From Megasphaera sp. (GTDB lineage Bacteria; Bacillota; Negativicutes; Veillonellales; Megasphaeraceae), in NCBI GenBank assembly GCA_022486585.1, contig JAKVKI010000003.1:1-64000 (forward strand): a stretch of DNA of 64,000 nucleotides, read 5' to 3'. Numbering within the stretch: the first letter of the stretch is position 1; each line of letters opens with the position of its first letter. Both the position numbers and the translations under genes were made by a program. This document shows positions 1 through 6,397 of this stretch, piece after piece. Below the pieces are notes generated by a model. It had not been told where the DNA came from, searched no databases, and saw only the letters and a list, made by a program, of their open reading frames with translations.

Positions 1-1392
1 GGGCAATTTTTTGATAGAAAGAATGGTAGCATACGACCTCGCGATTTGGCAAAGCATATTTCGGCGTTTGCTAATGCTTCAGGTGGCTTGATTGCAATCG
101 GTGTTGACGATAATGGTACAGTGAGCGGTATTACTGCTGATCAGGAAAACCATTTCAGACAGGCTCCTATCGATTTTCTTCTAACGCCGCCTCCGTATCA
201 AATTGAGGTTGTATCTGTTAACATAGATGGAAAATCGTTGAAGATTATGTTATTCCATATTTCTTCCTATGATTCCGGTATTATCAAGCTCAGGGACGGA
301 AAAGCCTATCAGCGTTATGGTGACTCTTCGCGTGAATTGAATCATGATCAGCTTTTAGCATTGGAGTATTCGCGAGGAATACGTAACTTTGAAGCCAATA
401 TTGTTCCTTATGCTACATTGAATGATTTGGATATGAAAGCTGTAAAGGACTATGCTGAAATAGTGTCGCTAGAATATGGTAACGAATTGGATTTGTTAAA
501 ATCTAGGGCATTAATTATTCCGACGGCTGATAATGAATTTAAAATTACTAACGCTGGAATCATTTTATTCGGGAAGCGGCCTACACAATTTTTGCCGAGT
601 GCAAGAGTAAGATTTCTCCGCTATGAAGGTACAACTGCAGGAGTTGGCACTGATTTTAACCTAGTGAAAGAAGTTACATTGGAGAAGCCACTAGTAAAGA
701 TTGTTGAAGAAGCGAAATCATTGATTTCCGCCCAACTGAGAGAGTTTCAGCGATTAGATAAGTCTGGGAAATTCGTAAAAATTCCGGAATATCCTGCATT
801 TGCTTGGGTAGAAGGCTTAATAAATGCCGTTACACATCGTGATTATTCTATCAGTGGCGATCATATTCGTATTATTATGTTTGATGACCGTATGGAATTT
901 TTTAGTCCCGGTTGTTTGCCCAATATTGTTACCATTGAGAATATTAAGGAAACGAGGTACTCTCGAAACCCCTTAATAGCCAGGGTATTGGCTGACTATG
1001 GGTATGTGCGGGAATTGAATGAAGGTGTTAAGCGCATGTATATAGATATGGAAAATATGTTTTTGGATCCACCGGAATTCAGTGAACCGAACAAAAGCGC
1101 TGTAAAACTCGTGTTGAAAAATAATTATGCTATGCGGTCAGTACGCAGGATGGAATCGATACAGCAAGTAGTGACCACGGATATATGGAATGAGTTGAAT
1201 TCTTTTGAACAAGAAATTGTTATATATATGACTAATATGGGGCAAAGCAGATTGCAAGCATTAGCTTTTATGACTGGAAAATCAGCTAGAACTGTTAGGG
1301 AACATATGAAAAAACTAATTGTCATGGGGATTGTTAAGGAACATGCTGCATCTCCCAATGATCCACATAAGTATTTCACAATTGGGGAGTGA
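1..1392 (+). CDS. AlbA_2 / RecG-C-like ATP-binding regulator (5' truncated)
   Basis: The reading frame is open to the first base of the window, so the start codon lies upstream and at least 463 residues are visible. The visible N-terminal part (about residues 8-40: GQFFDRK, then AFANASGG and IGVDDNG) is the end of an AlbA_2 (Schlafen-type) nucleic-acid-binding domain. Around residues 270-340 the string EGLINAVTHRDYS, the SPGCLPN turn and SRNPLIARVL are typical of the GHKL-like ATPase domain found at the C-terminus of RecG-like transcriptional regulators. The last 80 residues look like a winged helix (RTVREHMKKLIVMGIV). Such proteins often sit within BREX and type I restriction operons; placement just before pglZ fits this. 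The role is probably DNA-binding or regulatory, but that is inference. An internal TTG at 46 would give a product lacking the AlbA_2 start and is not preferred. Confidence 0.85.
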   Translation, partial: GQFFDRKNGSIRPRDLAKHISAFANASGGLIAIGVDDNGTVSGITADQENHFRQAPIDFLLTPPPYQIEVVSVNIDGKSLKIMLFHISSYDSGIIKLRDGKAYQRYGDSSRELNHDQLLALEYSRGIRNFEANIVPYATLNDLDMKAVKDYAEIVSLEYGNELDLLKSRALIIPTADNEFKITNAGIILFGKRPTQFLPSARVRFLRYEGTTAGVGTDFNLVKEVTLEKPLVKIVEEAKSLISAQLREFQRLDKSGKFVKIPEYPAFAWVEGLINAVTHRDYSISGDHIRIIMFDDRMEFFSPGCLPNIVTIENIKETRYSRNPLIARVLADYGYVRELNEGVKRMYIDMENMFLDPPEFSEPNKSAVKLVLKNNYAMRSVRRMESIQQVVTTDIWNELNSFEQEIVIYMTNMGQSRLQALAFMTGKSARTVREHMKKLIVMGIVKEHAASPNDPHKYFTIGE

Positions 1393-1394
1393 TT

Positions 1395-1507
1395 TTTCCT
1401 AGTACTTCCTAGTGCTTCCTAGTGATTTCTAGTGATTTCTAGTGCTTTCTAGTGCTCCTAGTGCTTCCTAGTACTTCCTAGTACTTCCTAGTATTTTCCT
1501 AGTAGTT
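1395..1507. repeat. Short tandem array, eleven CTAG-centred ~10-bp units
   Basis: Directly after the stop codon of the upstream gene come eleven units of consensus TTCCTAGTRC. The CTAG cores begin at 1399, 1409, 1419, 1429, 1439, 1449, 1458, 1468, 1478, 1488 and 1499, so spacing is 10 bp with one 9-bp and one 11-bp step. Unit variants are TTCCTAGTAC, TTCCTAGTGC, TTTCTAGTGA and TTTCTAGTGC. The array is non-coding because TAG recurs in all frames. The period matches one turn of B-DNA, placing every CTAG on about the same helix face. A protein-binding array or a replication-slippage product are both possible. Confidence 0.9.
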
Positions 1508-1796
1508 CTCAGACATGGTAAAACTGGGAGTAAGGAGCGTTACACACAAATTCAAATACTTGTGGATACGATGAAGGGAAGGCTGAAATACAACTGGAGC
1601 CTATCTTTTGTCTATCTTATAAAATATCTTGTGTAGACCAAAGAAATGCAGATAAATTGGGGATTCTGTCTTGTAAATATCTTTTGTTTATCTTTTGCTG
1701 CATAATATAGTGGTACCGCTTATGGATTACAGTCACCTAGATGGATCTATTATTACTGTAAAATGGGAAGTCATCAAACATTGAGGAATGATTATT
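1508..1796. promoter_or_regulatory. AT-rich leader of pglZ with direct repeats
   Basis: No gene is apparent here. Two 17-bp direct repeats, TATCTTTTGTCTATCTT at 1602-1618 and TATCTTTTGTTTATCTT at 1678-1694, differ at one base and lie 76 bp apart; a shorter relative (TATCTTGTGTAGAC) begins at about 1625. They sit 100-200 bp before pglZ and could be operator sites for the locus or part of a promoter region. A TATAAT-like string (CATAATATAG) follows the second copy at about 1701. The function is inference from position only. Confidence 0.45.
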
Positions 1797-4316
1797 ATGA
1801 TAGAGATGGATTTAAAACAAATTACGGACAGATTGAATACAGTATTTACCGGCGAGGCTCGCAAGCTTGTGTTTTGGTATGATGATAAGGCGGAGTTTGT
1901 TGAGGATATTGATAGTTTGAAATTAGAAAATGCCAAGGTATTGAAAATGGAAGAGAATACTCAATTTCAAACGAAGTATTTCTTGGAACGGCAGGATAAG
2001 GTGGGAAATTACCTTGTTTATGCACCGTTTCCCAAACCAGATGTGCGAATGAATCATTTAGAGGATATGTTGCTCTATTCTATATCATTTCATGCAGATT
2101 TGGCGTCGCTTATTGTGGCCGATTTGCATATTAAAGAGCGGTATAAACCGTTGATTGAAAAATACATCAAGTTTTTTAAGAATAAGGAACGGATGCAGCG
2201 TTTTTATGATTTGGAAATTGAGACATACAATGATGAGACTATTGTTGTTGGCCTGATGAGTGCTTTATGCCGGACACGAACCTGTTCTTTCGATGAAGTG
2301 TTGCGTGTGCTTTTGACGGAAGGAAATTTACAGGATAATCCGTATGTGGAAGAATTCAAGAAGTACGAGTTGATTGCGGAATTTTGGAAATTCTGCGAAC
2401 AGCAATTTGGTTATACTGACGACAAGCCGACCTTAGAAAAGTTGATTGTTACCATGTTTGTGACATATGCGGGAAAATATATTCAAGGCGAGTTGCCAAG
2501 GAGTTGGCAATCTTTTGTTTCTTATAAGTCCGGTAACAGCATCGCATTTCTGGACAGCTTAATGAATAATTACCATTATCGAGACCGCTATGATGTGTTA
2601 TCGGAACGGGTGGCCGTGGGCTTACACGCAACGGAGACTTTTGATGAGTACGCGCCGGAAGCTTTGCTGGAATGTGATTCCTTTAAAGAAATCGACCGAC
2701 GTATTTTGGCTTGGCTGATAAAACGCCTTTTGGCTGAAGACACAGGTGCGACATTATCAGGGGATTCCATACAGGAAATCTGTGCAAGGCGCCAGAAAAT
2801 GCATTTTGGTCCAATTTTTGCCCAGCAATATGAGCTGTTGGACAGTGCGTATACATTGATTATGGCAGCCCATTATACTTGCCCGAATGATTTTGCAGCT
2901 ATTATCAAGCAGTATACCGAACGGGACTATCGGTTGGACCAGACGTATCGCCATTTTTATTATTGTTATGATGCATTGGCGTCAAGCACTGCCTATGAAC
3001 CTTTGCGGGACTTGGTGGAAAATATATATACTCATGAGTATTTGGAAAAACAGATGCCGCAATGGAATGCCGGGTTGCTTATGAGCGATGTAGCGGCAAT
3101 GCTGCCTTTGCAGCGGAATTTCTATAGCCATTATGTACAGCCCGTTAAGGAACGGGTTGTGGTCATTATTTCTGATGCCATGCGGTATGAAGTAGGGCAG
3201 GAATTGTTTAAGACATTGCAGGATGACCCCAAATGCACAGCAAAAATTGAGACGATGCTTAGTACCGTGCCATCTTATACACAATTAGGTATGGCGGCCT
3301 TGCTGCCACATCGAACGCTGGCTTTGACTAAGGAAGGCAAAGAATTGGCCGATGATGTGTATTGTAATGACTTGTCTTCGCGGCAAAAGGTATTGCAGAC
3401 TTATGAACCGGCGAGTTGCTGCGTTCGCTTTGATGACATTAAGAATATGAAAAAAGTATCTTTGCGCGAAGTGTTCACAGGAAAGCAGGTCGTCTATGTC
3501 TATCACGATCAAATTGATGTACGCGGTGAGCATGTTGAAGACGAGGTGTTTGTAGCTTGCCGTGAAGCCGTGATGGAAATCGCTTCCTTCATTCGTCGGG
3601 TAGCGGCTAATGCCAATACACTTCGTTTTATCGTTACGGCAGATCATGGCTTTATTTATAAGCGCAAACCTGTTTCGGAAAGTGGCAAAATTGGTGGTGT
3701 CGCCGATAAGAATAGCATCGTGAAGCGGCGCTATGTAGTCGCTGAGATGCCTGTGCAGGACGATGGTATTTGTCATATCAGGTTAGGCCGTGTTTTGGGA
3801 AATGATGATCAGCGCATTGTTTCATTTCCTTGTAGTACCAGCGTCTTTAAGACGCCGGGGAGTAGTGGTCAGAACTATGTTCATGGAGGCTCGTCGCCAC
3901 AGGAAATGCTCGTACCGGTCCTTAATATTAAGATGGAAAAAGGGCATATGGAAACGAAGATGGTCCAGATTCAGTTGGTTAGTCTTGTACAGAAAATAAC
4001 GAATCTGATTACTACGTTGGAATTTCTTCAATCTGATCCGATTAGTGATGTTGTCAAGGAGACGAAATTCCACCTGTATTTTGTTTCGGAAGATAATGAA
4101 AAGATTTCCAATGAAAATATCTATATTGCGGATAAGCGTGATGCGGATACAAAAAATCGCATCTTCCGCATGAAATTCACATTCAAAAATAAGAAGTATG
4201 ATAAGGATAAGCCGTATTATTTAGTCGCGTATGACGAAAATAATGGATTGGAAGTAATGCGTCATGAAGTTGTCATGGATTTGGCCTTTGCTGATGATTT
4301 CGGCTTTGATTTATAA
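1797..4316 (+). CDS. pglZ: PglZ, BREX type 1 phosphatase-fold protein
   Basis: This 839-residue protein is the PglZ component of a BREX phage-exclusion system. The alkaline-phosphatase-superfamily core is recognisable from ISDAMRYEVG at about residues 457-468 and from the metal-binding-type string TADHGFIYKR at about 613-623; the preceding 450 residues are the family's helical N-terminal part. PglZ is needed for BREX restriction and for host methylation together with PglX and BrxB/BrxC; its exact reaction is not settled in the literature known to me. The start at 1797 is chosen because GAGG at 1783-1786 lies 10 bases before it, whereas ATG 1788 almost touches that site. brxL follows after 23 bp, so the two are co-transcribed. 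Confidence 0.93.
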   Translation: MIEMDLKQITDRLNTVFTGEARKLVFWYDDKAEFVEDIDSLKLENAKVLKMEENTQFQTKYFLERQDKVGNYLVYAPFPKPDVRMNHLEDMLLYSISFHADLASLIVADLHIKERYKPLIEKYIKFFKNKERMQRFYDLEIETYNDETIVVGLMSALCRTRTCSFDEVLRVLLTEGNLQDNPYVEEFKKYELIAEFWKFCEQQFGYTDDKPTLEKLIVTMFVTYAGKYIQGELPRSWQSFVSYKSGNSIAFLDSLMNNYHYRDRYDVLSERVAVGLHATETFDEYAPEALLECDSFKEIDRRILAWLIKRLLAEDTGATLSGDSIQEICARRQKMHFGPIFAQQYELLDSAYTLIMAAHYTCPNDFAAIIKQYTERDYRLDQTYRHFYYCYDALASSTAYEPLRDLVENIYTHEYLEKQMPQWNAGLLMSDVAAMLPLQRNFYSHYVQPVKERVVVIISDAMRYEVGQELFKTLQDDPKCTAKIETMLSTVPSYTQLGMAALLPHRTLALTKEGKELADDVYCNDLSSRQKVLQTYEPASCCVRFDDIKNMKKVSLREVFTGKQVVYVYHDQIDVRGEHVEDEVFVACREAVMEIASFIRRVAANANTLRFIVTADHGFIYKRKPVSESGKIGGVADKNSIVKRRYVVAEMPVQDDGICHIRLGRVLGNDDQRIVSFPCSTSVFKTPGSSGQNYVHGGSSPQEMLVPVLNIKMEKGHMETKMVQIQLVSLVQKITNLITTLEFLQSDPISDVVKETKFHLYFVSEDNEKISNENIYIADKRDADTKNRIFRMKFTFKNKKYDKDKPYYLVAYDENNGLEVMRHEVVMDLAFADDFGFDL

Positions 4317-4339
4317 TAAATATGATGGGAGTGTATACG

Positions 4340-6397
4340 ATGATTGATGCAGCCCAAGATGATTTGGAACTGATGCACCAAAAGCTACGGGATCATTTTG
4401 CGGGAAAAATTGTCCGCAAAGATTTGACGAAAAAGATAAAAGAAGGAGCCAATGTCCCTGTTTATGTACTCGAATATTTGTTGGGGATGTATTGTTCTTC
4501 TCAAGATGAGAGCGAAATCGAAGAAGGCGTGGAAAACGTCAAGAAAATTCTTGCTGATAATTTTGTGCGGCCTGATGAAGCTCAAAAGATCTTGTCTGTG
4601 TTGCGTCAACGTGGTAGTTTTACGGTCATCGATAAACTTACAGTAAGCCTAAATATTAAAGAAGATAGATATGAAGCAGAATTTTCTAATTTAGGATTGA
4701 AAGCGATTCCTATTGGCGAAGAATATCCGACGCAGTATGATCGTCTTCTTTGCGGGGGCATTTGGTGCATTGTCCAATTGACGTATGAATATGTTGAGGA
4801 AGAAAAGAAAAATGGAACTCCTATTATGGTTCGCAAGTTGAATCCGATTCAGATGCCGCATGTCGATATTGATGAGTTAAAGGAAGGGCGGAAAGCCTTT
4901 ACGAAGGATGAATGGATCGATTTGATGCTTCGTTCTACCGGGATGGAACCTACTACGCTGGAATATCGTGTTAAATGGTTGTTGTTGGCGCGTATGCTGC
5001 CATTAGTAGAAAATAATTTCAATCTTTGTGAGTTAGGTCCTAGAAGCACGGGTAAATCCCATTTATATAAAGAAATTTCCCCTAATTCCATCCTTGTGTC
5101 TGGTGGTCAGACTACGGTTGCTAATTTATTCTATAACATGGGACGAAAAACTGTAGGACTAGTAGGACTATGGGATTGTGTGGCTTTTGATGAAGTTGCT
5201 GGTATTCATTTCAAGGATAATGATGGCATCCAAATCATGAAAGACTACATGGCGTCCGGGTCATTTGCCAGAGGTAAGGAAGAAAAAGCAGCCTCAGCTT
5301 CCATGGTGTTTGTAGGTAATATTAATCAGAGTGTGGATGTGCTGCTGAAAACGTCCAGTTTATTTGATCCATTTCCACCAGAAATGGGGACCGACACAGC
5401 ATTTTTGGATCGTATCCATTGCTATATTCCTGGTTGGGAAATACCAAAATTCCGGCCAGAACATTTTACGAATGATTTTGGCTTTATTACAGATTATTTG
5501 TCTGAATTCATGCGTGAACTCCGGAAGGAACAATATGGTGATGCTCTGGATAAATATTACCATTTGGGTAAAAACCTGAATCAGCGTGATACAATAGCTG
5601 TTCGTAAGATGGTCGGCGGTTTCATCAAATTAGTTTATCCTGATGGAAATTATACGCAGGAGAATTTGGAAGAAATTTTGAAATTGTCGCTGGAAATGCG
5701 CCGCCGTGTCAAAGAACAGTTGAAAAAATTGGGTGGAATGGAATTTTACGATGTCAATTTCTCATACATTGATAATGAATCTTTCGAAGAAAAATATGTA
5801 TCCGTACCTGAACAAGGCGGTGGCAAGCTTATTCCTGAAGGTATGTGCAATCCGGGACAGGTATATACGGTATCTCATGGGAAGTCGGGTATGATTGGTG
5901 CTTTTCGATTAGAATCTCAAATGTTGCCAGGAAGTGGGAAATTAGAAAGAACAGGGTTAGGATCTGATCGAGAATCACGCGAAGCTTCTAATACAGCTTT
6001 TAATTTTCTCAAAGCTAATGGAAAAAGTATTAGCAGCTCTATTAGTACGACGATGAAAGATTACATCATTAATTATCAAGATTTACAAGGAATCGGCATG
6101 ACGAATAAGCTAGCATTACCAACGCTGATTGCTATTTGTTCTATTGCCCTAGGTAAGCCAACTGTCAGCAGTTTGGCTGTATTAGGAGAAATCAGTATTA
6201 GTGGAACGATGATGAAAGTGGAGGAACTGGCTAATACGTTACAAGTATGCTTAGATAGTGGAGCGAAAAAAGTATTGTTGCCGATAACTTCGACAGTCGA
6301 TTTAGGCTCAGTGCCAGCAGAATTAATTGGAAACTTTAATTTGATTTTCTACAGTAGTGCAGAAGATGCTGTGTTTAAGGCATTGGGAGTTGAATAA
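4340..6397 (+). CDS. brxL: BrxL, Lon-like AAA+ protein of BREX type 1
   Basis: This 685-residue protein matches BrxL, the AAA+ effector of BREX type 1. The N-terminal DNA-binding part begins at once (HFAGKIVRKDLTKKIK, then VPVYVLEYLLGMYC). Walker A reads GPRSTGKSH at about residue 233, Walker B AFDEVAG at about 281, and a sensor-like VFVGNIN at about 323. The C-terminal 120 residues have a Lon-protease-like fold signature (LGEISISGTMMKVEEL, AKKVLLP), but the Lon GPSAG nucleophile motif is not seen in its expected place, which reads GMTNKLALP. The start at 4340 has GGGAG 8 bases upstream; the in-frame ATGs at 4322 and 4325 precede that site. It is the last intact gene of the defence locus. Confidence 0.93.
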   Translation: MIDAAQDDLELMHQKLRDHFAGKIVRKDLTKKIKEGANVPVYVLEYLLGMYCSSQDESEIEEGVENVKKILADNFVRPDEAQKILSVLRQRGSFTVIDKLTVSLNIKEDRYEAEFSNLGLKAIPIGEEYPTQYDRLLCGGIWCIVQLTYEYVEEEKKNGTPIMVRKLNPIQMPHVDIDELKEGRKAFTKDEWIDLMLRSTGMEPTTLEYRVKWLLLARMLPLVENNFNLCELGPRSTGKSHLYKEISPNSILVSGGQTTVANLFYNMGRKTVGLVGLWDCVAFDEVAGIHFKDNDGIQIMKDYMASGSFARGKEEKAASASMVFVGNINQSVDVLLKTSSLFDPFPPEMGTDTAFLDRIHCYIPGWEIPKFRPEHFTNDFGFITDYLSEFMRELRKEQYGDALDKYYHLGKNLNQRDTIAVRKMVGGFIKLVYPDGNYTQENLEEILKLSLEMRRRVKEQLKKLGGMEFYDVNFSYIDNESFEEKYVSVPEQGGGKLIPEGMCNPGQVYTVSHGKSGMIGAFRLESQMLPGSGKLERTGLGSDRESREASNTAFNFLKANGKSISSSISTTMKDYIINYQDLQGIGMTNKLALPTLIAICSIALGKPTVSSLAVLGEISISGTMMKVEELANTLQVCLDSGAKKVLLPITSTVDLGSVPAELIGNFNLIFYSSAEDAVFKALGVE

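Follow-up and report, generated by a model that had tools for sequence, protein, structure and literature searches.

Near the beginning of the 64,000-nucleotide Megasphaera sp. sequence analysed here (the window), eleven CTAG-containing units are lined up at close to helical spacing between a Schlafen-like gene and the BREX genes pglZ and brxL (Table 1), which raises the question of what such an array does and to which of its neighbours it belongs. It is by far the top-scoring tandem repeat of the window, called by TRF at 1396–1492 with a 10-bp unit, 9.8 copies and a score of 131. Our recount reproduced exactly the spacings of the original prediction, with CTAGT cores starting at 1399, 1409, 1419, 1429, 1439, 1449, 1458, 1468, 1478, 1488 and 1499, in steps of 10, 10, 10, 10, 10, 9, 10, 10, 10 and 11 bp; their number thus stands, but the 107 bp within which they were said to lie measures 104 bp. 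CTAGT is constant in 11 of 11 units, and the spacers vary (ACTTC, GCTTC, GATTT, GCTTT, ATTTTC). The reported scarcity of CTAG was borne out as well, the window holding 50 occurrences against 141.6 expected from dinucleotide shuffles (~3-fold rarer), 11 of which fall in the array. A scan of the 1.9 Mb of the same genome revealed no second array of this kind.

All cores had been predicted to face the same side of the helix, which holds for neighbouring cores, these being in phase, but not for the ends of the array, since a mean step of 10.0 bp at 10.5 bp per turn leaves the first and last cores about half a turn apart. The array does lie between the AlbA_2 gene and pglZ, as described, but not midway: it begins 6 bp past the stop codon (1390–1392) of the Schlafen-like gene, which it abuts, and ends ~290 bp ahead of pglZ. 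At 1200–1900, neither sigma-70 promoters nor terminators scored above chance.

Table 1 Features of the window, arrays found behind close relatives of its Schlafen-like gene, and settings of gene-array pairs. Coordinates are window positions; relatives are listed by locus number.
Feature	Locus	Coordinates	Strand	Basis or details
Schlafen-like gene: SLFN_AlbA_2 (PF04326), HATPase_c_4 (PF13749), C-terminal winged helix (~residues 376–461)	Window	1..1392	+	Pfam, AlphaFold2, Foldseek
Phased array, 11 units of TTYCTAGTRNTT	Window	1395..1507	+	Cores at 1399–1502
Second, different phased set, TATCTT(TTG)	Window	1602..1694	+	Sites at 1602, 1613, 1625 and 1678, 1689
pglZ (BREX-1 phosphatase PglZ type A)	Window	1797..4316	+	TIGR02687, 556 bits (cut-off 270); PF08665
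brxL	Window	4322..6397	+	TIGR02653, 1048 bits (cut-off 628); PF13337, PF20442
Array of CGAGTAG	L129/L194			Every 11 bp
Array of CTAGTAG	L212			
Array of TAAGTAG	L214			
Array of CTAGTAA	L218, Fusobacterium			
Array of TTTATTGTAG	L219, Streptococcus respiraculi			~15 times
Array of ACAGTAG	L220, S. dysgalactiae			~20 times
Array of TTTATAGCAG	L273			
Array of GTTAGGTT	L160/L185			Every 10 bp
Array of GCGAGGTT	L184, L189, L190, L192, L199			Pairs 21 bp apart
Array of GTAAGGTT	L187, L164			Pairs
Array of AGCTTGACG	L204, L272			Pairs
Array of AGCTTGAAACG	L195			Pairs
Array of TTTGCGAAGT	L197, L198			Every 9 bp
Array of CGAGTA	L269–L271, L274			Pairs
Gene-array pair in BREX	Window; L184; L192			L184 read as brxC-pglX-gene-array-pglZ
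Gene-array pair between hsdS and large hsdR-like gene	L187			
Gene-array pair ahead of hsdS	L218			By translation
Gene-array pair ahead of integrase, phage-like plasmid	L219			

The contig begins inside the Schlafen-like gene, the 5' part of which (the N-terminus of the protein) is missing, and Schlafen profile alignments to this incomplete protein begin past the catalytic glutamates. The remainder matches PF04326 and PF13749 with E-values of 2.5e-16 and 5.3e-21 and scores of 60.7 and 74.8 bits against cut-offs of 25.3 and 26, assigning the protein to the SLFN_AlbA_2/HATPase_c_4 (COG2865-like) proteins. An AlphaFold2 model (mean pLDDT 83) was matched by Foldseek to 3lmm, Schlafen N-domains, MarR/AspA-type winged helices and archaeal HTH proteins; the model, these matches and HTH-regulator profile hits at the C-terminus agree on a C-terminal winged helix. 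Both PglZ and BrxL exceed the curated cut-offs of TIGR02687 and TIGR02653, pointing to a type 1 BREX locus, with the pglZ start at 1797 picked from its distance to GAGG and 1788 as the alternative. Same-genus loci carry two large upstream genes that we read by eye as brxC and pglX.

The original prediction placed the array within BREX, and our comparisons do not support tying it to BREX itself. PglZ relatives (43–68% identical) in four genomes of the same taxonomic order (G006, G013, G015, G022) show no CTAG array ahead of pglZ, same-genus BREX loci without the Schlafen-like gene included; three of the four have no Schlafen-like gene at this position, and the AlbA_2 gene in G015 is another, distantly related one, so that the array is not a feature of BREX regardless of the accessory gene. 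Close relatives of the Schlafen-like gene, moreover, occur in BREX, type I restriction, prophage, plasmid and unrelated loci, and the gene that follows the array varies (pglZ, hsdR, hsdS, an integrase, a transporter) and is sometimes convergent. As the array is found outside BREX and is missing from BREX loci without the gene, it belongs to the protein subfamily rather than to BREX. The second phased set of the window (Table 1), a repeat of TATCTTTTG ahead of pglZ, behaves differently: its TATCTT motif recurs as TATCTTTTGA in 11-bp steps, in clusters ~90 bp apart, ahead of pglZ in the BREX loci G013 and G006, both without a Schlafen-like gene there. One reading is that the Schlafen-like gene and its CTAG array were inserted ahead of an older array of another regulator.

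We gathered close relatives (~39–50% identical) from whole genomes, viral contigs and plasmids, and nearly all of them carry short phased repeats just 3' of the stop codon, each with its own core (Table 1). CTAG, on which the original prediction centred, is therefore neither a conserved signal nor the point of the array, as relatives carry CGAG, ACAG, GCGAGG and others in its place. The arrays follow one of two architectures, either dense 10- or 11-bp steps or 20–22 bp pairs recurring every 77–120 bp, with step series such as 21, 89, 21; 21, 86, 21; 21, 99, 21, 99, 21; 22, 55 repeated six times; 69, 20 repeated three times; and 10 or 11 repeated up to ~20 times. Judged from these spacings, both architectures would place the sites roughly along one side of the DNA. 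The cores point in the direction of the gene in nearly all arrays, with inverted copies also present in one clade, and motif copies mostly cluster 3' of the gene in the 18 loci scanned, with stray single copies in L187, L188, L189, L194 and L198. Unit number differs between relatives, with five sites in L270 and L274 against seven in near-identical L271, and two in L216/L275 against ~20 in 76%-identical L220. A proposed copy-number-variable switch for pglZ-brxL is thus partly supported, in its variable copy number and not in switched expression. Some gene copies are broken: the truncated copy of L199 keeps two of the four sites of its relative L190, and the split or frame-shifted copies of L200 (G013) and L171/L198 (G321) include one without an array (L200) and one with an array (L198).

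To quantify the association, we counted matching 9-mers (one mismatch allowed) at lags of 10, 11, 20, 21 or 22 in the 450 bp past each stop codon, and required at least five matching windows because 35% of controls have a single match at such lags. Phased repeats were detected behind 24 of the 32 close relatives, as against 7 of the 82 distant AlbA_2 genes and 11 of the 238 other genes in these loci; at the off-phase lags of 12–16, none of the 32 close relatives gave a hit. The identity boundary that separates close from distant relatives was drawn once the first loci had been viewed, and members of a clade are not independent. The difference between close relatives and other genes corresponds to a Fisher p of 2.4e-19, computed without correction for relatedness. 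The window array is itself self-linked in this sense, with phased repeats directly 3' of the stop codon. Most of the eight misses are accounted for by 9-bp spacing (L188, L216, L197, weakly L196), 22-bp pairs inside a 77-bp macro-repeat (L191), a contig end after two sites (L204), and split (L200) or partial (L224) genes. A shuffle test (60 shuffles, 300 bp) had low power for the sparse 21+89 type and showed few repeats upstream of the genes, in regions that may overlap coding sequence.

Cores are unrelated between clades, indicating that the arrays are not one inherited sequence, and the core class follows the protein tree. With 31 proteins on the tree, four changes of core class, assigned by eye, are enough, where each of 500 label shuffles needs at least 11; for the spacing class the figures are four and at least eight. 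The window protein itself has a long, weakly placed branch. The predicted recognition helix varies with the core, KSDNT occurring with GCGAGGTT in five of five genes, RSSGT with GTAAGGTT in both genes, RSVPT with CGAGTA pairs in all four genes and KS[PL]QY with AGCTTGACG, in a sample too small to tell a match of helix and core apart from shared descent.

Away from the close relatives, the downstream array is absent from most distant members. Repeats within the gene itself, in the linker before the winged helix, occur in 17 of 82 distant members, compared with 3 of 82 when a stretch from mid-gene is taken, often with a 12- or 21-bp period; for most of them the cause may equally well lie in the protein, for instance in a flexible linker. 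In one such gene (L289; 5100–5520 oriented, G006:C42), CTGACCAAA is repeated within the linker that precedes the winged helix and again past the stop codon, in steps of 12, 18 and 9. In a Methanosarcina locus (L023/L225), a GAGCTAG array with steps of 10 and 20 bp stands behind an AlbA_2 gene that is 27.5% identical. Searching viral contigs with the single protein gave no match, and with an alignment six. Mycobacterium phage Squirty gp31 ('RecG-like DNA helicase') and Gordonia phage gp38 (L222, L223) are 32–37% identical relatives encoded near an integrase; no clear array lies behind the gene in these phages.

A genome pattern scan for four CTAG at 10 bp matched mainly arrays of rumen Bacteroidales; among its matches, the Methanosarcina locus was the exception in having an AlbA_2 gene beside the array. 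In rumen Prevotella and other Bacteroidales (L007–L123), these are dispersed 10-bp CTAG arrays with a CCTAGG core, variable spacers and up to 25 copies, several per genome. None of 78 lies inside an ORF and 7 of 73 lie between divergent genes, indicating that they are mostly located behind genes; tblastn found no AlbA_2 gene beside them. The window array is not an intergenic array of this type, its own genome having one, beside the AlbA_2 gene.

The best explanation of these data, to which we assign a probability of roughly 0.64, is that the array is a self-linked, multi-site double-stranded DNA target of the Schlafen-like protein, in a complex that would control flanking transcription. That the array is a target of the protein encoded directly upstream is well, though indirectly, supported by its near-constant presence behind genes of this subfamily, by its helical geometry, and by the change of the core along the protein tree together with the predicted recognition helix. 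The proposal of an operator of the adjacent DNA-binding protein, or a cooperative platform, is thus supported and is the reading we prefer, since relatives in many settings are followed by arrays that share this geometry but not the sequence; for the accompanying suggestion of a target or decoy for DNA-modifying enzymes we found no support. In such a complex the winged helix would read the core, and several molecules would assemble side by side on one DNA face. The nucleoprotein complex behind the gene may then control transcription into, or starting in, the next interval (here pglZ-brxL), in which case the level of the protein would feed back on its own locus, and the putative nuclease-like and ATPase-like domains could make the complex responsive to infection. 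A simple promoter operator misfits some loci, since the array lies behind the gene and not at a promoter, and the next gene is varied and sometimes convergent.

This position and variety of next genes leave room for a different use of the same binding sites, in which the array would not control transcription but store an inactive, DNA-bound Schlafen nuclease that is freed to attack RNA when host DNA is lost or taken over in an infection. In BREX loci, proteins of the Schlafen-HATPase-wHTH type are considered RNase effectors (PMC12839542), and an operator needs neither up to ~20 copies, nor a position always behind the gene, nor varied neighbours. Against this, nuclease activity is not known for this subfamily and two to five sites are enough in many loci, and we regard a stored effector as unlikely. 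Its fuller form is similarly doubtful: a Schlafen-type nuclease subfamily held in check by DNA, with a private phased array storing an inactive filament that phage-induced loss or takeover of the array would release, and with core and winged helix co-evolving into an orthogonal cassette that passes between BREX, restriction and prophage loci. The protein could also load on the array and spread over neighbouring DNA, silencing or segregating the element as ParR, TubR and AspA do. The centromeres parC/ParR, tubC/TubR and that of pNOB8 AspA consist of ~10–12 bp direct repeats beside the gene of the binding protein, which assembles on them side by side. Here too, short direct repeats lie beside the gene of an HTH protein with a spacing that recalls such iteron-type centromeres, and the winged helix matches AspA weakly, among many other folds (4rs8, 5k5q; E 0.004–0.013). 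Centromeric or silencing nucleation is nonetheless improbable, as the loci are mostly chromosomal defence loci with lineage-specific cores and extra 20–22 bp pairs, and no partition NTPase was identified among the three genes around the window array (Schlafen-like, pglZ, brxL), upstream of which the contig ends, or noticed by eye beside the relatives' genes.

Action at the RNA level, with the array serving as a 3' UTR repeat that the protein's own Schlafen domain binds or cuts, would agree with the activity of Schlafen domains on RNA and with the near-uniform direction of the cores. Folding, compared in a set that left out L129 and L167, is better than in shuffles for the window (z −2.8), L219 (−5.9) and L220 (−7.3), but not for L159 (−0.3), L160 (−1.1) or L273 (+2.0). 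The arrays share no common fold and their 10/11 and 20–22 bp spacing is a need of DNA, not RNA, which together with the inverted copies of one clade makes an RNA element very unlikely. A related candidate was the type III toxin-antitoxin arrangement, in which toxI, ~36-nt repeats upstream of the toxin gene toxN, acts as folded RNA. Both cases join a gene for an RNase-fold protein to a tandem repeat, but the 10-bp unit and lack of a consistent RNA fold do not fit this arrangement, the present arrays having 10–22 bp spacing and a downstream position. Slippage could have produced a neutral minisatellite, as the perfect repeats of L219 and L220 and the differing unit numbers might suggest, but it would scarcely place the same geometry with unrelated sequences behind the same gene (75% versus 5% of control genes) or keep cores while spacers diverge, and simple slippage cannot yield spaced pairs of the 21+89 kind; we consider it highly improbable. 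We give as little credence to a site for an unrelated host factor or for BREX proteins, or to an intrinsically bent element: 10-bp CTAG arrays are indeed common in rumen Bacteroidales without this gene, but here the core differs between lineages and tracks the protein tree, the array is found outside BREX and missing from BREX loci without the gene, and the lack of a base composition common to the cores argues against a bend.

Neither regulators with repeated operators nor iteron centromeres are new kinds of system. Within BREX, the WYL repressor BrxR recognizes one imperfect palindrome of 25 bp, located in the promoter ahead of its operon (PMC9122589). The present case likewise pairs a winged-helix regulator in a BREX locus with a nearby DNA site, here predicted from sequence, but with many short direct repeats behind the gene instead of a single palindrome. 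At least 1017 taxa have Schlafen-type winged-helix proteins in BREX and related loci, and their Schlafen-HATPase-wHTH members in BREX have been treated as backup RNase effectors (PMC12839542). The window protein resembles them in domain architecture and in its place in BREX and other defence loci; the text of that study mentions no non-coding element or operator and uses 'repeats' twice, of proteins, and the arrays add a DNA-binding side. In the literature searched, short of the bacterial Schlafen preprint 10.1101/2025.07.24.666596, we found no description of private, differently spelled phased arrays across a defence-linked subfamily, nor, in the literature searched, of what the DNA-binding half of Schlafen-type winged-helix proteins reads.

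If the arrays are indeed targets of the proteins encoded upstream, the binding site of such a protein could be found by reading the DNA behind its gene, giving testable DNA sites for widespread and poorly understood phage-defence proteins. Dozens of protein-site pairs of different specificity would then be at hand, forming a natural series of orthogonal DNA-binding modules, and the regulation or activation of a defence component would become directly testable.
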